Origin: a virus
Virus record (IMG/VR): IMGVR_UViG_3300027137_000011
Span: 1 to 29,723 of that record
Length of the DNA: 29,723 bases
Direction: 5' to 3' (one strand)
Positions 19,201 through 29,721 of this stretch are shown here, in pieces. Each line of letters begins with the position of its first letter. Positions within the stretch are counted from its first letter, which is position 1. The notes under the pieces are model-generated. The model did not search any database. It had not been told where the DNA came from and was given only the letters and a program-made list of their open reading frames with translations. Position numbers and translations under genes: made by a program.

Positions 19201-21029
19201 AACTTCTTAAAAGTATCATTAACCAAGCATCCATCCGTATGCTCGGCGGTAATCGCATTGCTTCTCGTCGTCTAAAGTCCCAAAAAGTAATTGGTGCGTC
19301 GAGCGATGTGTCGCGTAACCTCCTTCAATATAACGCTGCGGCGGCAAGTCATATCGCTGTGGCGGAGAACGCGCCTGTCATTCGTGACGGCCTTACTGAA
19401 ATGTCGGATATACTTAAAACGTATTCCGGCAATGATCGCGCACAGTTACTCTCGGTTGTTGATGAAGTTAAGGCCCGTGTCAATGAGGGCATTATTGACC
19501 CTAATGCCCCCGGTTGGCTCATGAAAGATATCATGACCTATGCTTTCATGGCGCGGTTGTTTTCTCCTGCATACACCATCCTTCAGGGTATGCAGCCATT
19601 TATGGTGACAATACCTGCGCTCGGCAGTCGCTATGGTAACTTGGCAGCCTCGGCAGAAGTTGGCCGTGCTTACAGCGATATAGGGTTTGGTGATGTAGCT
19701 CTGCAAGGAGTCGTTAATACCGCTCGCGCTGTAAAACAGACGTTTAAGGCGTCGTTACTTAATACAGATGACATTGTCGGAAGTATGCGTAAAAAACTCT
19801 CCGCCTCACCTGATGGCGCAGATGTTTTGCGTATGATGGACGAAGCCATTCGCCTTGGTGCAATCGACGGTAATGCTGGTATCGAAGCAACCAGCGCCGC
19901 AGCCGAAGGTCGCGGAAAATACGGCCAGACTCTTGCCGGTGTTGATCGTATTGCACGCCAACTCCCGCAGATGATGGAGGCGGTTAACCGTTCTGTCTCT
20001 GGTGTCGCAGCGTATCGCCTTGCCCGTAAGAACGGTAAGACGCATGAACAAGCTACACAGTATGCAATTGATACCATCCAGAACACGCAAGGTGATTACT
20101 CGGCGGCAAACTCTCCGCGCTTCTTCAACAACCCCATCTTGCGCCCCGCGTTGATGTTTAAGAAGTACGCTCTGATGGTGACGTACCTCTTAGGAGATAT
20201 GGCCTATCGGGCGTTTAACGGTGCAACCCCCGAAGAAAAGCGTATTGCCATCAAGCAGATTATGAACATCGTCGGTGTGCAGATACTCGTCGCTGGCGCG
20301 TTTTCGCTTCCCGGCCTTGAACTGTTTAAGGTTGCGTTCCTGCTTATGTCGGCGATGGGGCTTTCTGATGGGTGGGACGAGCAGGAAGACAAACTCCGTA
20401 AATTGCTCGATGACTCTGTCGGCAAATCGCTTGGCGAAATGATCTCTTCTGGGCTTTTGTCTCGGGCTTTTGGTAACGGCGTTGACCTGTCACAACGCCT
20501 GTCCCTTGCGGACATGTGGTTGTTTGGTGAGCCTAAGAGCGATAGTTCAGAAAGTATGCAGGCATACATGTTCCGGCAAGCTGTCGGCGCTCCCGGTGGT
20601 TACTTACTCGATGTGCGTGATGCGTTTATTCTCGCTACTGAAGGTGAGCTTGGTAAAGCTTTTGGTAAATTCTTACCAGTTAAGTTTCTTGGAGATTTCG
20701 CTAAAGCTGCTCATGGGTATAGTGAGAGGGAGTATCAAGTACCGGAAAAGCGCAATGTGTCCGGTCTTGGAGAGGCAGCATTTAATGTTTTAGGCTTCCG
20801 CACTGGCCGTCAGGCTGAGCTTAGTCGTGATCGTAATATCGCTAGGCGAGAGAAACAAGATAAACAGAAAGAGTTCGATAAGCTGATGAAGCAGTGGCGT
20901 ACAGCCCGTAATAAAGGCGACATGGCTAAATCAATCGCTCGCAACCGTGAGTGGAATGCAAATCTTCAAAAGAATGAGTTTCGTTTGAGGCTCCCTGTAA
21001 AACCAAGAGAACTGAGGACTGCGCAATGA
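13281..21029 (+). CDS. Giant internal virion / large polyvalent protein with zincin-like site (2582 aa)
   Basis: The product is 2582 residues, the largest of the window. Residues 41-66, 118-160, 210-225 and 291-312 are hydrophobic and Gly/Ala-rich, a membrane-inserting type of N-terminus. A disordered Pro/Ala region (~330-650) holds two ATPVQKVQ copies. Long charged helices follow to ~1250. A metallopeptidase-like site comes next: H1434-E1435-x-x-H1438 (VVHEAVHALV), with a possible third ligand in EFMAEAW (E1489 or E1493). Further on, YFPLMRYG starts at Y1811, and hydrophobic segments occur near 2283-2312 and 2328-2361. This layout is that of giant phage 'polyvalent' proteins thought to be packed in the capsid and injected. 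I find no RNA-polymerase or transglycosylase motif. GGTAGGGT at 13270-13277 supports the start. Confidence 0.75.
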   Translation: MAEDNTRYIPQERLLTQREGDYGELTPEDYETSWSDYRRALVSGGAGVVSGLAGGAEYLTGGALGGDTRRYFGEISDDQIKAMSPVGRRAIQAEFLPEEGEASVFDNFASSLGLKTVSALPSLVSSIVPAGLAVRALQGASLGTRALAGAVTARGTAGLMAGGDVAGQIYSAVEKIEDKDLQEKSDVYAGYRSMMSEADARRLYNQDVAKAAPAIAALISSALGGAESQAISRYAGKTAAAGFFRGVGRGAGAEATQEAAESGVGELLAQLALTDQNLAQMNWQKILSKGLEGATIGGIMGGGVGGISGIGGRPDAGTLTATSDPEAIKKLTEAEQAPETESQGVVPPKGYGTGTAPAPAEDPTAGNPQSAPSGSERQYPKGKSPSFTIDTVRSRLEAQGIEFPENRLSEINDRIAKIRRMKKGERGSQFAALLDDLYAIGGAEGEVAPGVSISAGPDAAQVAAMNAATPVQKVQGQSAAEDLTKVGDAGKAIADNLYSMLWEKVQVGDVNENRRPSALLQAAKVVRDAGGLTTQEQFRAFGTEYANINTKGKEFQASMRDLVSRYLPSQTSATPVQKVQAAPSVMAPPTPPPVADALGNLTTPRAPAPPPVPAPARGPKVPTPVATAVGRRPAQAPVDTGTNLQQPSADLLAEQEELISGQRAVQMFPTNTAPLDLPEGMKKTKTRRGIFHYNPNATLPDGRKVTEGLIQQLSAKGRENELLGLGDRSKQEVAAAAPSEGGVTVVSEMTPEGARARSAATTVADAERQAQAMRETAAPENNVVIEPSEQALASRVTPPGPRVLEDVSEAGQAARAAQAEADAAAAARVAEEKKAILEKAKADEKAEAVKGKVGREGSLRKLSDDQREVMKEVEAVASDAFRKFSPTPIEDTFFVDEDASKLSDQDVDKAKASMVARLKAMVKAYDDGIRGLKETYKGVKSAEVIKLLNPAERGSKQADEIVFILRARHFVSKREKTKSGGAFKTFADFAAKELQYRGGRESAAEERALETAELARKAKIPGLAADKVEEGPVTSQVEALVDTGLSPEDRVIASEEAPELRTEAEVYAEGRERPKLFKARAAAAAAEAAVTSQEGKFKVSKRPTFAEGRPTVAGKVSLKPKAAAAVAVAQKTEVKAAPTATLGSMVSDANALLKQSAVNEYTGGGYKFVYRKGSDELYLVRLEDGGEILIAEDASQKPINVLMRDMQRGIQTAGVDVDLREASLRGELEGGVSQGTAQRTDVIESSNVPMDAGWADAYAGLDPDRNIIYSDDTIALMSARAINGKTIYIPIHRTAGYAKVDIDKFAGKIFTKEQTDRLKAAKKADVELREANRPDNAIRFPNGEYIVPDRTIRLADALNGLDLSGLSDTFSIIRDRVIRDVKDVPVHIVSPAEIAKAAGRSTDLGFYSYTDATGEHILIRNDLSTDSNIHTVVHEAVHALVIRSMRNNVTLNNLAVAVADEVTAYWKSKNGIDIRDMPFARYAYTHVDEFMAEAWGNKEFQNLLAKTPISPTLAARLGIADWRKSTMWDAVIKFVQRTLKLPNDAVSALEAVIRVTDEAATARATLPAATGQGAPLQSANITAQGIIGSSVDRKNAFTSWVKRSWVKIIPSTGIRQQYSDTIIGPALKRVIDSIVSTAPRARQLKAEGDKLATRAADLSNQFKTEFGSLTQIMEEARMLDVTVEGQNFFEKNPKTQAIKYWQGKARLSNLRSRFSVLPPELKQLYRDMAQFYRDSHNYITKASVTSILEGLQLRQTRGKAKGNALTDQQIDELTQRVMDQEMTAADKVLLGETIYTALENAAAFHRVRGDYFPLMRYGNHLVITTDRIKDTMGGKLEKPDTVLFRNKSNTAARNAAENFVANSELKDLSVRKVYFDNATNTELANEDEAKSYNDVDVGYRVVMQTKGVYSFETGTAAEAFSRTNPEGHDQISKPEIRIGSEYPTQAMSGTQVASLISAIDSRVASKDITSGQGELLKSIINQASIRMLGGNRIASRRLKSQKVIGASSDVSRNLLQYNAAAASHIAVAENAPVIRDGLTEMSDILKTYSGNDRAQLLSVVDEVKARVNEGIIDPNAPGWLMKDIMTYAFMARLFSPAYTILQGMQPFMVTIPALGSRYGNLAASAEVGRAYSDIGFGDVALQGVVNTARAVKQTFKASLLNTDDIVGSMRKKLSASPDGADVLRMMDEAIRLGAIDGNAGIEATSAAAEGRGKYGQTLAGVDRIARQLPQMMEAVNRSVSGVAAYRLARKNGKTHEQATQYAIDTIQNTQGDYSAANSPRFFNNPILRPALMFKKYALMVTYLLGDMAYRAFNGATPEEKRIAIKQIMNIVGVQILVAGAFSLPGLELFKVAFLLMSAMGLSDGWDEQEDKLRKLLDDSVGKSLGEMISSGLLSRAFGNGVDLSQRLSLADMWLFGEPKSDSSESMQAYMFRQAVGAPGGYLLDVRDAFILATEGELGKAFGKFLPVKFLGDFAKAAHGYSEREYQVPEKRNVSGLGEAAFNVLGFRTGRQAELSRDRNIARREKQDKQKEFDKLMKQWRTARNKGDMAKSIARNREWNANLQKNEFRLRLPVKPRELRTAQ
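14682..14705 (+). repeat. 24-bp direct repeat, copy 1 (copy 2 at 14997-15020)
   Basis: Both copies encode ATPVQKVQ in the disordered part of the giant protein and differ at one base (CCCCT versus CACCT). They are about 315 bases apart. The sequence between them is mostly unrelated, so this looks like a short duplicated linker or binding peptide rather than a domain repeat. Confidence 0.75.
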
Positions 21030-21292
21030 AGGGTAAGCGAGACCCCGTAAGCCACCGCACGCCTGAGCAGATCAGGAAGATGGATCGCGGTTACAACGCT
21101 ACGCCGGAGATGGTGAAGAAGCGCACCATGAATAATCAGGCGCGCTCCATGCTTACCAAAGAGGGTAAGGTGCGTAAGGGCGATGGTAAGGATGTGGACC
21201 ACAAGACGCCACTGCGGCATGGCGGTGGAAATGGTAGGTCCAACCTTCGCGTCATGGACAAGAGCAAGAACCGTGCATGGCGCAGCAGCTAA
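21026..21292 (+). CDS. Small HNH endonuclease-like protein
   Basis: The product is 88 residues. The C-terminal half has the HNH-type pattern GDGKDVDHKTPL, GGGNGRSNLRV and NRAWR, giving H59, N73 and N82 as the metal-site candidates with D56/D58 next to the His. The N-terminal half is basic (KRDPVSHRTPEQIRKMD). Phage HNH proteins of this short kind cut or nick DNA, sometimes in packaging together with terminase. No CxxC zinc knuckles are present, and the last position is Asn rather than His, so activity needs proof. The ATG overlaps the giant protein's stop as ATGA, so it is the last gene of the late block. Its stop touches the convergent gene without any spacer. Confidence 0.8.
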   Translation: MKGKRDPVSHRTPEQIRKMDRGYNATPEMVKKRTMNNQARSMLTKEGKVRKGDGKDVDHKTPLRHGGGNGRSNLRVMDKSKNRAWRSS

Positions 21293-21300
21293 CTACTGCT
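21284..21300. terminator. Weak hairpin at the convergent gene junction
   Basis: AGCAG (21284-21288) and CTGCT (21296-21300) can pair around a seven-base loop that contains both stop codons (TAA of the plus gene, TAG of the minus gene). The plus strand continues TTGTGTG, a poor U tract. It may be a weak bidirectional terminator, but five base pairs is little evidence. Confidence 0.25.
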
Positions 21301-21538
21301 TTGTGTGCTGCCACGAACATGCGCCCATGTTCATGCGCCTTTCTAGGTTTGTGCTGATGGTCAGCAGCGCCGTGTTCAGTAAGAGCAGCGCCTCATCTTT
21401 TGACTCGGTCTGACAGCTCAGAAGCTCCGTTATCAGGCAAGCGGCGGAGGCTACAGCATTCTGCAGCTCTTCGCCCTCCACCGCTCTGAACAGGTCTTGG
21501 AGAATTTCTCCAACGACGTCCATGTCAATTTCTGTCAT
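21293..21538 (-). CDS. Small hypothetical acidic helical protein
   Basis: The product is 81 residues, mainly helical and mildly acidic (MTEIDMDVVGEILQDLFRAV, then LITELLSC and EALLLLNTALLTISTNLERR). It ends with CSWQHTKQ. I recognise no family; the length and helices would suit a small regulator or inhibitor. The ATG at 21538 follows a purine-rich AAGGAAGAAGGCAGAGG stretch and overlaps the end of the GcrA-like gene by 14 bases, so it is probably co-translated with it. It is the last gene of the minus-strand block. Confidence 0.6.
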   Translation of the reverse strand: MTEIDMDVVGEILQDLFRAVEGEELQNAVASAACLITELLSCQTESKDEALLLLNTALLTISTNLERRMNMGACSWQHTKQ

Positions 21539-21983
21539 CCTCTGCCTTCTTCCTTCGCGCTGCGATCACTGAACTCTTCACCCATACAACCATATGATGC
21601 TCGGCGCAGTAGCGGGTGCGAACATCACGTCTTGGTTTGGCGCAGAAGAAATGCCCTCGTGAAGTCTCTCCAATAGACCATCGGCAGTCGCCTTCGTTGA
21701 GATCGAGCAGGTGTACGCCACCTATGTTCTCTTCCTCTGTCTCCTCCTGTACGCGCCGCTTGATGATCGACGCTTTTATGTTTCGATGTGTTTCACGGTC
21801 TAATGGGCTCTCGACTACGGCTCGTGGGGCTACTGGCCTGTGCAGTTTATCTATCTCCCCCCGCTCCTGCATCCGGTACACCTGCCCCGCAATCGTGTTG
21901 CGCGAGACGCCCAGCTCCTCTCCCATCTTCTTGAATGTCATGCCAGTGGGAAGAAGCTCTTTTATTCTCTGTGCAATGTCCAT
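21525..21983 (-). CDS. GcrA-like cell-cycle/transcription regulator
   Basis: The product is 152 residues. Residues ~8-40 form an N-terminal helix-turn-helix (TFKKMGEELGVSRNTIAGQV). A variable basic/acidic linker leads to the C-terminal GcrA signature at 98-133: DCRWSIGETSRGHFFC, then RYCAEHH, with C100, C114, C126 and H129/H130 in register with the cysteine/histidine-rich end of GcrA. In Caulobacter, GcrA binds sigma-70 through this end and activates promoters that carry methylated GANTC sites. The family is typical of Alphaproteobacteria, which points to the host. GAGGGCGAATAATG gives a good ribosome site, and the ATG overlaps the primase stop by one base. A phage copy could redirect host polymerase to phage or cell-cycle promoters (inference). 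Confidence 0.85.
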   Translation of the reverse strand: MDIAQRIKELLPTGMTFKKMGEELGVSRNTIAGQVYRMQERGEIDKLHRPVAPRAVVESPLDRETHRNIKASIIKRRVQEETEEENIGGVHLLDLNEGDCRWSIGETSRGHFFCAKPRRDVRTRYCAEHHMVVWVKSSVIAARRKKAEDDRN

Positions 21984-24951: not shown

Positions 24952-25926
24952 TTATTTAGGAAGCAGGCTATCGAGCTGAGCATCAAGCTCGTCGTCGAAG
25001 CTAGACGGTGCCTCTCCTTCGTCCTCGTCCTCAACAGGCGGCGGGGGCGGGGCTGCAGCTTTCTTCTTGTACTCACGCTTGGGAGCGGGCTCCTTGATCT
25101 CGCCCGTCTCTGGATCGTGGGCCGGAGCTTTAACCTCAGCAGGCTTGGCGATCTGCGGCGGCTGCTCAAACACCGCTGCAGGGGTAGGTGCGGGTTGGTC
25201 CGTAGCAACCTCCGACTCAGAGAGAATACGCCCGACACGGGGGTCTTCGCGCAATGCGATGATCTGGTCAGCCTCGGCGTCTGTGAGCGGACGGATGGCG
25301 TTGAACACAAACTTCGGGAACGCCTCCTTGGTGTCGAAGGAGATGCGTGTACCAATCGCATAGTATGGGTAACCCATCGACCCCATCTTCTGACCGTACT
25401 GCGCCAAGTCTTGGAGGGATGCTGCAGGGATACGCAGCAGCATGGGTCCGCCATAGACCTCGTTGGTCAGATCAGCCAACGGCACAACAACCGCACGCTT
25501 GCTGTCAGAGCACGCCTTGCCGGGCTTACCAGCCGGAGTAATGCGCGACCCCCAAGCATTCATGGGGCAGGCTGCGCAGGTGTTGGACTGCTTGGCCTTG
25601 GAGTTGATATCCGGCGTGACGCCATTGTTCGAGTAGCAGTCAGGGCTCTCGGTCGATCCCTCCTTGTACCCGTCCTTGTAGAATATCTTGCTGAGGTGCC
25701 CCGCAGCTTTGAGGATGACGACCTCGATGGATGAGCGCGGACCATCTCCGTCCTCGCGCATGAGGTTGGTCTCCTCACCACGGAACTTGGTGCGCCACAC
25801 CTTGCCGCGATAGCTGATGATGCCGTAGCCAGTCGAGACGCCAGCCGAGAGATCATCTTCAACTTTTTGATTGGCGAAGCGGGTGGACACTGCGCCGAAG
25901 TTATTGGGTACTACGATATTAGACAT
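24952..25926 (-). CDS. Probable single-stranded DNA-binding protein
   Basis: The product is 324 residues. Residues 1-235 look like a beta-rich core (GYGIISYRGKVWRTKFRG, IEVVILKAAGHLSKIFY) with four cysteines, C97, C117, C120 and C139, that could bind zinc much as in T4 gp32. A Pro/Ala/Lys linker follows (~240-297), then a very acidic C-terminal tail (VEDEDEGEAPSSFDDELDAQ and on to LLPK). A folded core plus an acidic tail is the hallmark of phage and bacterial ssDNA-binding proteins, where the tail recruits replication partners. The family itself is not one I can name. GGAG lies five bases upstream of the ATG, and the gene sits between a helicase pair and the primase, fitting this role. Confidence 0.6.
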   Translation of the reverse strand: MSNIVVPNNFGAVSTRFANQKVEDDLSAGVSTGYGIISYRGKVWRTKFRGEETNLMREDGDGPRSSIEVVILKAAGHLSKIFYKDGYKEGSTESPDCYSNNGVTPDINSKAKQSNTCAACPMNAWGSRITPAGKPGKACSDSKRAVVVPLADLTNEVYGGPMLLRIPAASLQDLAQYGQKMGSMGYPYYAIGTRISFDTKEAFPKFVFNAIRPLTDAEADQIIALREDPRVGRILSESEVATDQPAPTPAAVFEQPPQIAKPAEVKAPAHDPETGEIKEPAPKREYKKKAAAPPPPPVEDEDEGEAPSSFDDELDAQLDSLLPK

Positions 25927-25935
25927 GTGTGCTCC

Positions 25936-26334
25936 TTACTTGCGGCGAACGCCGACGACATAGGTAGTTGAGAAATTAACTCCGGGAGGCGGAGCGTTGT
26001 TCTCTTCGATAAAGTCAGAAACGGCAGTGACGTTGGCTTTGCGGTCCAACAAGTCCCAAGCTTCGCTCCCGATCACGTACCGCATGAAAGCGTCAGGGTC
26101 AGCGAGGGACGCCGCCTTCTTCTCGGTGCGGTACACGGTGCCAGTGTCAGTGCGGACACTTTCTCCGTTGATTGTGTTGAGGTGGTCGAGGAGCACGGAG
26201 TTAAGCTTATCAAGCATCTCCTTGTATGGCTTCATCGCCGCCTTGTGTTCATCCTCCTTGGTCTTAATCAAATCACGAAGTCGCACATATTGGTCTACGC
26301 GCTTACTAATGTCTACAGTGGGTGGGTGTTCCAT
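25936..26334 (-). CDS. Conserved coiled-coil protein of the replication block
   Basis: The product is 132 residues. An N-terminal coiled coil (YVRLRDLIKTKEDEHKAAMK, then MLDKLNSVLLDHL) is followed by a small domain with SVRTDTGTVYRTEKKAASLA, PDAFMRYVIGSEAWDLLDRK and PPGVNFSTTYVVGVRRK. I recall this kind of protein beside ssDNA-binding protein genes in many phages, without a known activity. It could be a replication or recombination accessory factor. AAGGAG six bases before the ATG is formed within the end of the helicase gene, and its own stop region provides the AAGGAG of the next gene. Confidence 0.7.
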   Translation of the reverse strand: MEHPPTVDISKRVDQYVRLRDLIKTKEDEHKAAMKPYKEMLDKLNSVLLDHLNTINGESVRTDTGTVYRTEKKAASLADPDAFMRYVIGSEAWDLLDRKANVTAVSDFIEENNAPPPGVNFSTTYVVGVRRK

Positions 26335-26337
26335 TGG

Positions 26338-27894
26338 TTACTCCTTGCTTGCTTCCTCGAACAGTTCGAGAAACTTCTCCTGCACGCGCTGTTTCTTTTG
26401 GAGCAGCGCGTAGATTTTCTTCTCCACCGGGGTGGACTGCAGATGCAACAAAAGCTGCTTGTGCTTCTGTCCAACGCGGCGGATGCGGTGGTTCGCCTGA
26501 TCGTAAATCTCAAGAGAGGTGACGGGTGCGAACCATATAATCGTATCAGCAGCGGTCAGCGTAATACCGTGCGCCAAGCACTGCGGATGAGCGACTATAA
26601 CTCTGTATTTGTTGGTGTTCTGGAACAGGTTAAACACCTGCGCCCGGTCATTGGCTGGGGTGTCGCCAGACACTACAGCGTGCTCGATACCCTCTTGGGT
26701 AAGCGCATCGCTGATGCCACCCAGAGCATGTTTAAATGGTGCGAAGACAAGCACCTTGCGGTCTGTGGCGTTGATGGCGTCCAGCAAGGCTGTGACGCGG
26801 CTGTCGTTATCCAGCGAGACGGTCGAACCGTCCGATGAGTAGACCCAGCCAGTCGAGACCTGCAGCAGCTTCATCATGACCGCGCCAGCATTTGCTGCCG
26901 TGATCTCCTTGGCCAGCACGGCTGCGTGGGCATGATCCAGCAGCGCCTTGTAGACCTTGGCCTGCTTGGAGCCTAGCTCAACATCTACGAAACGCTCTAC
27001 GCATTCGGGTAACTCGACAACGTCATCGAGGGTGTACCGCACCGCTGGCTGCATGGCGGCGAAGGCTCTTTCTACCGCATCCGGTTTGGGAGCCCATTTG
27101 AACTGGGTGATCCTGTGCATGAGTTCTTCGCGAAACCTGCTGAAAAACTTAGGCACGTTGTTGGGCGTGACGATGGTGCATTGCGCCCACGCATCCGTTG
27201 GCTCGTTGGGGATGGGCGATCCAGTCATCCCCCATACCCATGTCATGCGCTGAGCCAGCTTGCGGGTGATCTTGGTGCGTTGCGATCCACCATTACGGTA
27301 GACGGCAAGCTCGTCGATGACCATGGTGTCAATGTCTTTGCGCGCCGTGATCTCGTCGATCAGCACCTTCAACCCATCGTGGTTGATGATGAACACATCA
27401 GCGTCCGGGTCTTTAAGTATCTCCAACCGCTTCTCGCGTGACCCATGGAGCACCACGGCTTTGACGTGCGGCAGCGTCTGGAATATCTCCTTGCTCCACG
27501 TAAACTTCAACGTGGACAGCGGTGCGACCACAAGAAGCTTATGGGCCAGCCCAGCTTTGTGCAGATAGTCCCACGACCACAATGCAGCTTTCGTCTTGCC
27601 GGTGCCCATGCCGTTGAGCACATAGGCTCGCTGGTTCATGGTCAGCATCGAGCAGGTTTTTATCTGTACATCGAATGGCTTGCCCTCGCACCAATCATAG
27701 TGCGTTGTGATGGGCGATGGCACATCGAACCCTAGTTTACGCAGCAGGTATGTTTCTGTCGGACCATGATTGACGGCAAGCGCTGGCCTACCCTTCATGG
27801 TAATTGGCGGTGCGGACGGAAATAAGTTCTGCACATCCGCGCGCAGTGGTACTCCGATGATTTTATGTTTCTGGCTCACTTGGACGGGGAGCAT
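26338..27894 (-). CDS. SNF2-like helicase/ATPase (superfamily 2)
   Basis: The product is 518 residues with two RecA-like domains. Motifs in order: Walker A NGMGTGKTK (residues 94-102), Ia region LLVVAPLSTLKFTW, II MVIDELAVYRN (D194, E195; DELA rather than DEAH), III WGMTGSPIPN, a C-terminal domain with KVLVFAPFKHAL, V AHGITLTAADTIIW, and VI YDQANHRIRRVGQKH. These are typical of phage SNF2-family translocases, which move along double-stranded DNA and remodel bound proteins or assist recombination and replication. GGAG lies 11 bases before the ATG, and the first 32 bases overlap the VRR-NUC gene. No nuclease or zinc domain is fused to it; the nuclease is encoded just upstream. Confidence 0.9.
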   Translation of the reverse strand: MLPVQVSQKHKIIGVPLRADVQNLFPSAPPITMKGRPALAVNHGPTETYLLRKLGFDVPSPITTHYDWCEGKPFDVQIKTCSMLTMNQRAYVLNGMGTGKTKAALWSWDYLHKAGLAHKLLVVAPLSTLKFTWSKEIFQTLPHVKAVVLHGSREKRLEILKDPDADVFIINHDGLKVLIDEITARKDIDTMVIDELAVYRNGGSQRTKITRKLAQRMTWVWGMTGSPIPNEPTDAWAQCTIVTPNNVPKFFSRFREELMHRITQFKWAPKPDAVERAFAAMQPAVRYTLDDVVELPECVERFVDVELGSKQAKVYKALLDHAHAAVLAKEITAANAGAVMMKLLQVSTGWVYSSDGSTVSLDNDSRVTALLDAINATDRKVLVFAPFKHALGGISDALTQEGIEHAVVSGDTPANDRAQVFNLFQNTNKYRVIVAHPQCLAHGITLTAADTIIWFAPVTSLEIYDQANHRIRRVGQKHKQLLLHLQSTPVEKKIYALLQKKQRVQEKFLELFEEASKE

Positions 27895-28183
27895 GGTGGT
27901 TGCGCTCCAAAAACGCTTTGAGTTCGTGGGTGGAGTCTACCGAGTCGATGACGAATACAGCGCCACCGGCACGAGTGATCTGACCGATGACCATCTTTTG
28001 TCGGTCAGTCGGTTTTTTACCGGGGGCCTTAGTCTCGATGGCGACGAACTTGCCGCCGACGCACAACAGATAATCGAGACTAGACGCGCCAAACCCACCC
28101 GGCACAGGCATGAACTTATACACACTCTTGTACTGATCTATGACGCGGTTGACCGCAGCTTTGACCTTGCCTTCAGGCGTCAT
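27863..28183 (-). CDS. VRR-NUC domain nuclease
   Basis: The product is 106 residues from ATG 28183. An ATG at 28228 would add 15 residues but overlaps a TATAAT promoter candidate and has no ribosome site, while GGTGGG lies just before 28183. The VRR-NUC (PD-(D/E)XK-type) core is clear: MTPEGKVKAAVNRVID, PVPGGFGASSLDYLL (D37), VAIETKAPGKKPTDRQ (E50, K52, Q62) and a C-terminal strand GAVFVIDSVD. Phage stand-alone VRR-NUC proteins are predicted structure-selective nucleases, similar in fold to the nuclease part of FAN1. It is encoded directly before the SNF2 helicase, which in other phages often accompanies it, so the two may act on branched DNA together. Confidence 0.85.
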   Translation of the reverse strand: MTPEGKVKAAVNRVIDQYKSVYKFMPVPGGFGASSLDYLLCVGGKFVAIETKAPGKKPTDRQKMVIGQITRAGGAVFVIDSVDSTHELKAFLERNHHAPRPSEPET

Positions 28184-28226
28184 GTCCCACCTATATCTGC
28201 TTGTATTATGAGGGTTGCAAGCCCCC

Positions 28227-28232
28227 ATTATA
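28227..28232 (-). promoter_or_regulatory. Candidate -10 element of a minus-strand promoter
   Basis: A perfect TATAAT occurs on the minus strand within the 103-base gap before the VRR-NUC start, preceded by an A/T-rich stretch. No good -35 hexamer lies 16-18 bases upstream. RNA would start near 28220, giving a leader of about 37 bases. If real, it would drive the nuclease, helicase, ssDNA-binding, primase and GcrA-like genes. Confidence 0.35.
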
Positions 28233-28274
28233 CATATTTTTAGTCTACGCCATAGGTGGTGGTGACCCTACAGC

Positions 28275-28284
28275 ATAGTACTAT
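28275..28284. promoter_or_regulatory. 10-bp perfect palindrome upstream of the promoter candidate
   Basis: ATAGTACTAT is self-complementary and lies three bases after a minus-strand stop codon, about 43 bases upstream of the TATAAT. It could be a small operator for a dimeric regulator. A 10-base palindrome can occur by chance, so support comes only from its position in one of the few non-coding gaps. Confidence 0.2.
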
Positions 28285-28286
28285 TA

Positions 28287-28583
28287 CTAGCCTGCGAGCA
28301 TCATGAGTTGCGCCATCAGTGTATCATCCGGGAACTTCTCCAACTCGTCTGGGCGTACTTCTACATGTATGTCCGAATGCAGTGTCCAATCTTGCTTCAG
28401 GATGCGGATGCGGATGATAAACACATCTAACTCGACGCTCCGCATGATATCTACTCTCGGAAGTAACTTCGGGTCGATGATGTTTCGTATTCTAGCCTCA
28501 GCCATACTCGTGACTACTTGCAGTTGGCGAGATGGTTTCTCGTCGTAAAAAGGTGGCGGGCTGGGTCTGCTCATGCCTCCCAT
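28287..28583 (-). CDS. Small hypothetical protein with FPxDxLxxQL C-terminus
   Basis: The product is 98 residues. A Pro-rich start (MGGMSRPSPPPFYDEKPSRQ) is followed by a helix, beta strands (VELDVFIIRIRIL, then IHVEVRPDEL) and a C-terminal helix FPDDTLMAQLMMLAG. That last motif is nearly matched by the small protein at the right end of the window (FPSDALITQLRMIQK). I recognise no family. GGAGAG before the ATG at 28583 supports the start; the ATG at 28574 is an alternative. It begins one base after the stop of the Cas4-like nuclease gene and is followed by the only sizeable gap of the minus block. Confidence 0.6.
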   Translation of the reverse strand: MGGMSRPSPPPFYDEKPSRQLQVVTSMAEARIRNIIDPKLLPRVDIMRSVELDVFIIRIRILKQDWTLHSDIHVEVRPDELEKFPDDTLMAQLMMLAG

Positions 28584-28584
28584 G

Positions 28585-29268
28585 TCACTCTCCGTGATGC
28601 GGGCACACCGTTACCGGGCACCAGCGTTTGCATAGAGGTCCGGGCTTGGCTGGATATGTCATGGTGTTATGGGCGTACTCAAGGGACTCGACACGAGGCC
28701 AGATGCCTCTCCAGATTTCAGCCATACCCTCACGAGTAAAGTCGGCACGAGTGGTGGCGTCCTCTTTGAGCCAGATAAACTCGCTGCGGACTTTCTTAAC
28801 CTCGGGGTGATGAGCGAAGACACACGCAGCCATTAGCGCGAGCTGCGATCCGTCTTCTAGGATTTTACCAGTCTTGTAATCGACGATGAGCGCCACGGGT
28901 CCAACGATCTTGATGACGTCGCCGATACCGCGATACCACGCCTTGTCTCCGAACCAGCTTTCAGGTCCGAACTCCTTGTTGATGGCAAGCTTCTGCTCAA
29001 CGAGTATGGTCCCGCCACCATGCAGTATGCGCTCCGCCCACTTCTCATATTCAGCCATGGACTTCGGCAGCGCCACGTTCTTGTCTACACGCTCAGCCAA
29101 CGCCTTATGGACTGCGTTGCCCCACAACAGCGCCTCACCTTCCTCTTCTTTAATGTCACGCTGGATATCGACATGCCAGTATCTCTTCGGACAGGTCTCG
29201 TAGTTCTTCAGCTTCGAATAACTCCAAGCGAAGGGCTTCGGTTTGTTGCGGACTGTTGTGACCTGCAT
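28585..29268 (-). CDS. Cas4/RecB-like PD-(D/E)XK nuclease with probable Fe-S cluster
   Basis: The product is 227 residues. Signature elements are FAWSYSKLKNYETCPKRYW with C26, GNAVHKAL with H54, GIGDVIK with D117, LIVDYKTGK with D130 and K132, and a following Q142 (SQLALMA). The C-terminus has C213, C217 and C222 (CKRWCPVTVC), so with C26 four cysteines are placed as in Cas4 and AddB-type nucleases that hold a 4Fe-4S cluster. Known relatives are 5'-3' exonucleases or endonucleases of recombination. No Cas1/Cas2 or CRISPR repeat is nearby, so this is a phage DNA-processing enzyme and not an adaptation module. It is translated after the gene at 29270 with only one base between stop and ATG. Confidence 0.88.
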   Translation of the reverse strand: MQVTTVRNKPKPFAWSYSKLKNYETCPKRYWHVDIQRDIKEEEGEALLWGNAVHKALAERVDKNVALPKSMAEYEKWAERILHGGGTILVEQKLAINKEFGPESWFGDKAWYRGIGDVIKIVGPVALIVDYKTGKILEDGSQLALMAACVFAHHPEVKKVRSEFIWLKEDATTRADFTREGMAEIWRGIWPRVESLEYAHNTMTYPAKPGPLCKRWCPVTVCPHHGE

Positions 29269-29269
29269 G

Positions 29270-29461
29270 TTACCGTGCTTTCTTCTTTTCGACGATGGTG
29301 ACCGTCGCAGGTGAGACTTGGTCGTTAAGTGCTTCAGCTATGAGCTTCGCGTAGTCCAGTGTCGGACACGTCGCGATGACGTAATAGCTTTCTCCGATGG
29401 CGCAGCGAGCGACATAGTACTTACCGCGATTTTGTGATGATGTGATGGTTATATATTTCAT
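29270..29461 (-). CDS. Small hypothetical protein
   Basis: The product is 63 residues, an alpha/beta mixture (MKYITITSSQNRGKYYVARC, a strand SYYVIATC, a helix LDYAKLIAEALNDQ, a final strand TVTIVEKKKAR). The pattern beta-beta-alpha-beta would suit a tiny single-domain protein, but I recognise no family. The start overlaps the upstream stop by three bases of ATGA type, and the stop is one base from the nuclease ATG. It is placed to be co-expressed with the Cas4-like nuclease. Confidence 0.55.
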   Translation of the reverse strand: MKYITITSSQNRGKYYVARCAIGESYYVIATCPTLDYAKLIAEALNDQVSPATVTIVEKKKAR

Positions 29462-29721
29462 TTCTGGATCATCCTCAGTTGGGTGATTAGGGCGTCGGAT
29501 GGGAACATATTTGCATCGTCTTCGAGCACCACATACGCGCCATTATTGCAGACAAACACAGCCACACGCTCAGGTGAGATGCGGTAGGACGAAATGAAAT
29601 CAATCCCTTTGTCTGGGCTGACATACTGTTGCCCATTGTACAGACGCATAAAGATCATCTGGTCATCAGAAATGCCGCCTGTATTATAATTGTGCTTTAC
29701 CCAGTGCGGTATTTGATTAGG
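29458..29721 (-). CDS. Hypothetical protein, N-terminus probably beyond the window (partial)
   Basis: The frame is open from the right edge to the TGA at 29458-29460. The internal ATG at 29658 would give 66 residues (MIFMRLYNGQQYVSPDKGID onward) but has no ribosome site, and the codons before it (WVKHNYNTGGISDDQ) read like protein, so the true start may lie outside. The sequence has beta strands (VAVFVCNN, GAYVVLEDD) and a C-terminal helix FPSDALITQLRMIQK that resembles the end of the protein at 28287-28583. I recognise no family. Confidence 0.5.
   Translation of the reverse strand, partial: PNQIPHWVKHNYNTGGISDDQMIFMRLYNGQQYVSPDKGIDFISSYRISPERVAVFVCNNGAYVVLEDDANMFPSDALITQLRMIQK

Follow-up and report, generated by a model that had tools for sequence, protein, structure and literature searches.

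A viral DNA fragment of 29,723 bases from IMG/VR, referred to here as the window (its longest relatives measure ~58-62 kb), carries at the end of a block of replication genes an open reading frame whose product resembles GcrA. This locus raises the question of whether the product belongs to the GcrA family and, if so, which promoters it would act on. GcrA belongs to a small set of bacterial activators that recognise methylated DNA in association with a sigma factor. Its sigma-interacting domain binds sigma region 2, and its DNA-binding domain reads methylated promoters (PMC7403470); some target promoters of host GcrA contain no GANTC (PMC7987155). In the preliminary description of the window, which was made from the sequence, the gene was proposed to encode a GcrA-like regulator that could recruit host sigma-70 to phage promoters or disturb the host cycle, and the dependence of GcrA on CcrM methylation of GANTC was taken as its background.

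Family membership, domains and phylogeny

The open reading frame was recovered exactly as it had been described, with the stop codon included, and was found to lie on the minus strand, which had not been specified before (Table 1). The motifs DCRWSIGE, HFFC and YCAEHH, on which the initial assignment had relied, were all found in the 152-aa product.

Table 1. Coordinates of the gcrA-like gene, its domains and the neighbouring genes in the window
Feature	Position	Strand	Remarks
gcrA-like gene, 152 aa	21525..21983	-	HTH ~1-45, linker ~46-88, sigma-interacting domain ~89-135
DNA-binding domain, residues 1-45	21849..21983	-	helices 3-13, 17-24, 28-40
sigma-interacting domain, residues 89-135	21579..21719	-	host-type Cys/His/aromatic core
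primase/helicase, 971 aa	21983..24898	-	DUF927, phrog_25314
rest of replication/early operon	24952..29658	-	reaches almost to the window end
orf81, overlaps gcrA end	21293..21538	-	no Pfam, PHROG or NCBIfam match
large polyvalent protein, 2582 aa	13281..21029	+	weak LPD39 match, phrog_37402
small HNH-like protein	21026..21292	+	end of plus-strand cluster

In the Pfam search, the GcrA profile PF07750 matched residues 5-135 of the protein over profile positions 9-146 of 155, with a score of 57.3 bits (E=3.1e-15; curated cut-off 26.9). The C-terminal domain, whose assignment the preliminary description had proposed to check by a profile search, falls within this match, over the cut-off. When the protein was compared with solved structures by phmmer, the best PDB match was C. 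crescentus GcrA (chains 7ye1/7ye2, E=3.3e-6), and the sigma-interacting domain of C. crescentus GcrA (5yix) was matched at E=0.003. The two domains were also scored separately. For this, 142 genomes were drawn from the class of a Rhodobacteraceae MAG (Alphaproteobacteria), GcrA was found over the cut-off in 84 of them, and one HMM per domain was built from 30 GcrAs out of those 84 genomes. The DNA-binding part scored 18.3 bits (maximum of 8.8 in 2000 shuffles), and the sigma part scored 28.0 bits (maximum of 6.6 in 2000 shuffles). Both domains that had been proposed, the N-terminal HTH and the C-terminal Cys/His-containing sigma-interacting domain, were thus found by Pfam and by the domain HMMs. 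Three related contigs (L002, L003 and L005) carry homologues at the corresponding position, and all four proteins, that of the window included, exceeded the PF07750 cut-off with both domains in the same order. Membership of the 152-aa protein in the GcrA family, with both domains, is confirmed at the level of sequence. The protein is not called an orthologue of GcrA, the host cell-cycle regulator, because it scored 37 bits against the host GcrA equivalog NF050816 of NCBIfam, for which the cut-off is 280.

Compared with the 30 host GcrAs, the DNA-binding domain retains R28, N29, G33 and R37. The host-invariant N-terminal Trp of 'SWT' is missing from its HTH, the Trp of 'LW' is replaced by L at position 11, and the Lys and His of 'GKVHR' are replaced by Q34 and Y36. 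In the sigma-interacting domain, C100, W102, G105, F112, C114, Y125, C126 and H129 correspond to columns that are invariant in the 30 host GcrAs, and its C/C/C/H residues are likely metal ligands. The comparison of gcrA from the window with that of L002 (dN 0.12, dS 1.22; dN/dS ~0.10) indicates that the gene evolves under purifying selection. By domain, dN/dS was lowest in the sigma domain (~0.05) and was ~0.15 in the HTH.

The structure was modelled by AlphaFold with a 6-sequence alignment. The three HTH helices were predicted with a pLDDT of 82-88; the sigma domain reached a pLDDT of only 42-59 and was not modelled, probably because the alignment was thin. When this model was compared with the PDB by Foldseek, all matches were generic HTH proteins with E values of 0.15 or worse, so that neither the model nor the fold search bears on the sigma domain. 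It had also been argued from the divergence of the linker that promoter choice may differ from that of host GcrA. This argument carries no weight and was dropped because host GcrA linkers vary as much, being equally free in length and sequence.

Phage-encoded GcrA is not new in itself. Caulobacter phage phiCbK and its relatives were already known in 2012 to encode it (PMC3556154), as does Brucella phage Y17 (PMC11836647), and records annotated as GcrA were found for Rhizobium phage RHph_X2_24 (X2_24), Pseudanabaena phage Pam5, Bajun, the podovirus ctHz2215 and two 'Synechococcus' phages. What the window protein adds is a divergent phage branch. In a tree of the two domains, the copies of phiCbK, Bajun and Yong-M4-211 were placed among host GcrAs, and the window group was placed in a phage-only clade together with X2_24, 7-7-1, Pam5 and ctHz2215 (ultrafast bootstrap 97). 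The ultrafast bootstrap of this clade was 91 after the addition of 18 sequences, which came mostly from host genomes and included second copies. Because the alignment comprised ~95 columns and the branches are long, so that long-branch attraction is possible, the phage-only clade is considered moderate evidence. In two scans of genome contigs for a host gene from which the window gcrA could have come, one gave nothing closely related and the other only one host-type GcrA.

The copy of Agrobacterium phage 7-7-1, F406_gp103 (L033, 3905-4375), is annotated as hypothetical; it is GcrA-like, with 28 bits against the host model. In RHph_X2_24, a gene (L095, 42588-43187) is annotated as a postulated decoy of the host sigma factor (Srd), and the presence of both gcrA and Srd in this phage suggests that more than one of its genes acts on sigma.

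The replication operon and its neighbours

As the preliminary description had stated, the gene belongs to a replication block: genes for a primase/helicase, an SNF2 helicase and VRR-NUC and PD-(D/E)XK nucleases lie on the same strand, and gcrA is the penultimate gene of this minus-strand operon. The stop codon of the primase/helicase overlaps the gcrA start codon (TAATG), which suggests translational coupling of the two genes. Upstream of the primase/helicase, the operon encodes a protein of unknown function, a phrog_13900 protein, the SNF2 helicase, the VRR-NUC nuclease, the PD-(D/E)XK exonuclease and small ORFs. Since it continues to near the end of the window, its promoter probably lies outside. 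A scan of the operon for promoter-like sequences gave results at chance level, the scan for terminator-like sequences was not interpretable, and nothing relevant was found in searches for repeats, tRNAs and Rfam families.

Homologues of orf81 come after gcrA in L003 (E=1e-25) and L005 (4e-9); contig L002 stops near the end of gcrA. No PF07750 match was found in more distant viral-contig relatives, and gcrA was neither annotated nor detected in RHph_TM29 (Rhizobium phaseoli; primase identity 47%). In these gcrA-less relatives, no orf81 homologue was found beside the primase. The gcrA-orf81 pair looks like a two-gene cassette of the window sub-lineage. Given its company with gcrA in L003 and L005, orf81 is a possible partner or regulator.

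The large polyvalent protein encoded on the plus strand shows similarity to the DarB-like antirestriction family, and similarly large ORFs stand at its place in relatives. In several relatives, the corresponding convergent junction also encodes a protein similar to the small HNH-like one. A 'putative integrase' of RHph_TM29 (L026, 19986-23069) aligns with the primase/helicase and is probably misannotated. Both the GcrA family and the closest phages point to an alphaproteobacterium, possibly a member of Rhizobiales, as the probable host of the window phage.

GANTC sites and methyltransferases

A map of GANTC sites across the complete phage genome had been proposed as a check of the GcrA assignment; it was carried out on the 29.7-kb fragment, outside of which the operon promoters likely lie. 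There are 28 GANTC sites in the window, all inside ORFs and none intergenic. To obtain expected numbers, codons were shuffled synonymously within genes. The long genes of the window contain 24 coding sites, compared with 65.6 +/- 6.3 expected. The depletion was complete in the contig sequences of the gcrA-bearing relatives L003 (0 vs 15.6 expected) and L005 (0 vs 36.2 expected), that is, 0 sites vs ~52 expected for the two combined, and GANTC was also absent from L004 (18.1 expected) and G021 (41 expected). The complete genome of RHph_TM29 (60,940 bases; L055+L026) contains no GANTC, with ~101 sites expected in its genes. Four sites are present in the complete genome of X2_24 (55,689 bases), none of them at a promoter-like place: three are within genes, including one in gcrA itself, and one lies between the ends of two genes that converge. 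When 4- and 5-letter palindromes were ranked by avoidance, GANTC came first in L003+L004+L005 and in TM29 and second in the window and in X2_24. No earlier report of this purge was found in the literature searched.

The purge is not universal, since the region of Agrobacterium phage 7-7-1 hardly avoids GANTC. The idea that gcrA is the cause of the avoidance was rejected, RHph_TM29 having zero GANTC and no gcrA annotated or detected; the cause could be restriction or interference with CcrM/GcrA. Near-total avoidance of another site was observed in a relative, G008 (L038-L041), in which GTAC occurs once in 62 kb vs ~120-157 expected.

Because there are no sites in the L003 and L005 contigs and none placed at a promoter in the whole X2_24 genome, phage promoters are unlikely to be controlled through GANTC in these three. 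The window phage itself, with 28 sites in the fragment, may still make use of GANTC. The dependence on CcrM and GANTC on which the preliminary description had drawn is thus weakened for phage promoters, given that GANTC is absent or scarce in gcrA-bearing relatives and that host-invariant HTH residues are lost; binding of host sigma-70 by the window protein is plausible. Of the results obtained, the GANTC purge in the relatives is the more unusual, and in its light a mode of action other than the one proposed earlier becomes more likely.

The claim that the window contains no CcrM-like methyltransferase holds for PF01555, PF05869 and [DN]PP[YFW] motifs in the 29.7-kb fragment, and neither PF01555 nor PF05869 was matched in the relatives. 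The 'putative methyltransferase' annotated in RHph_TM29 (L055, 20984-21517) was rejected as a candidate: its sequence is of low complexity, rich in Gly and His, and matched no methyltransferase, and the annotation is probably wrong.

Possible modes of action and comparison with known systems

In the ranking favoured here, a cofactor with changed DNA reading comes first, action on methylated host promoters second and a sigma decoy third. The first reading, to which about an even chance is given, is that the protein is a GcrA-family cofactor of a phage lineage, which would dock on sigma-70 and whose HTH would guide the choice of promoters other than by GANTC. The gcrA product would be synthesised alongside the replication proteins. 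Its C-terminal domain would most likely dock on region 2 of host sigma-70, and its N-terminal HTH would steer the sigma-70 holoenzyme to promoters of the phage, or to a subset of host promoters, via a sequence other than methylated GANTC. Such targeting is favoured because the HTH is divergent and hardly any GANTC is found in the relatives that carry gcrA. The contrast between the retained residues of the sigma domain and the lost residues of the DNA-binding domain was counted in favour of this reading. A broader version is put forward only tentatively: the phage-only branch, which is spread over unrelated alphaproteobacterial phages, may have been re-purposed as a GANTC-methylation-independent sigma-70 cofactor that brings the RNA polymerase of the host to phage promoters, with the GANTC-purged genome hidden from CcrM/GcrA.

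It is considered rather improbable that the protein is a host-directed mimic of GcrA, which would bind sigma-70 and those host promoters that contain methylated GANTC and bring the cell into a replicative state, the phage genome being no target. The same proposal was published for gp222 of phiCbK (PMC3556154); the retention of R28, N29, G33 and R37 in the recognition helix agrees with it, and, with hardly any GANTC in the phage genome, the protein would stay available for sites of the host. However, the HTH is divergent (18 bits against the host model, with Lys-to-Gln and His-to-Tyr changes), the equivalog score of 37 bits is far from 280, and the purge of GANTC from RHph_TM29, where no gcrA was seen, implies that the purge was not caused by gcrA.

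The pattern of constraint bears on the next reading, in which the protein competes with host GcrA for its site on sigma region 2 and shuts off the transcription that depends on host GcrA, activating no promoter. Its sigma domain is indeed the most constrained part, and small sigma-binding inhibitors are used by other phages (PMC7403470). But the HTH, dispensable for a protein that acts only as a decoy, is also conserved (dN/dS ~0.15) and is present in all four homologues, so that this reading is considered quite unlikely. The notion of an ordinary DNA-binding HTH protein whose zinc-finger tail is unrelated to GcrA and only resembles it, in line with which the HTH alone weakly matches many generic HTH families, is largely refuted and highly improbable in view of the two-domain PF07750 matches of all four homologues and of solved GcrA as the top PDB match.

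If the favoured reading of a cofactor with changed DNA reading is true, the preservation of the sigma domain together with the change of the DNA-reading domain in GANTC-avoiding genomes would amount to a natural uncoupling of the two GcrA functions, which is directly testable in rhizobial phages.

The domain order of the window protein is the same as that of host GcrA from C. crescentus and other Alphaproteobacteria (PF07750; 7ye1, 7ye2, 5yix), and the two share the Cys/His/aromatic sigma core and the R-N...G...R pattern of the recognition helix. However, the identity of the window protein to the 30 host GcrAs over the two domains is 28% at the median and 34% at best, and its HTH is without the Trp, Lys and His that are invariant in host GcrA. 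The gp222 protein of phiCbK is likewise a phage-encoded member of the GcrA family, for which an effect on the host cycle has been proposed (PMC3556154), but it clusters with host GcrAs (46% identity to the best host protein), whereas the window protein is on a separate phage branch. The GcrA-like proteins of RHph_X2_24, Pam5, ctHz2215 (MW202485) and 7-7-1 belong to that same branch, are short and, like the window protein, have lost most of the N-terminal motif of host GcrA; they differ from it in genome context, and their identity to it over the two domains is 26-34%.

Sinorhizobial and Ochrobactrum phages encode their own GANTC methyltransferases with CcrM-like specificity (PMC5537653, PMC7139368). 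These enzymes also touch the CcrM/GcrA circuit and are also encoded beside replication genes. However, those phages methylate GANTC, whereas the window fragment and its relatives, in which no such enzyme was found, avoid it. Avoidance of GANTC would be a second strategy beside the known methylation of this site in phages of Alphaproteobacteria.
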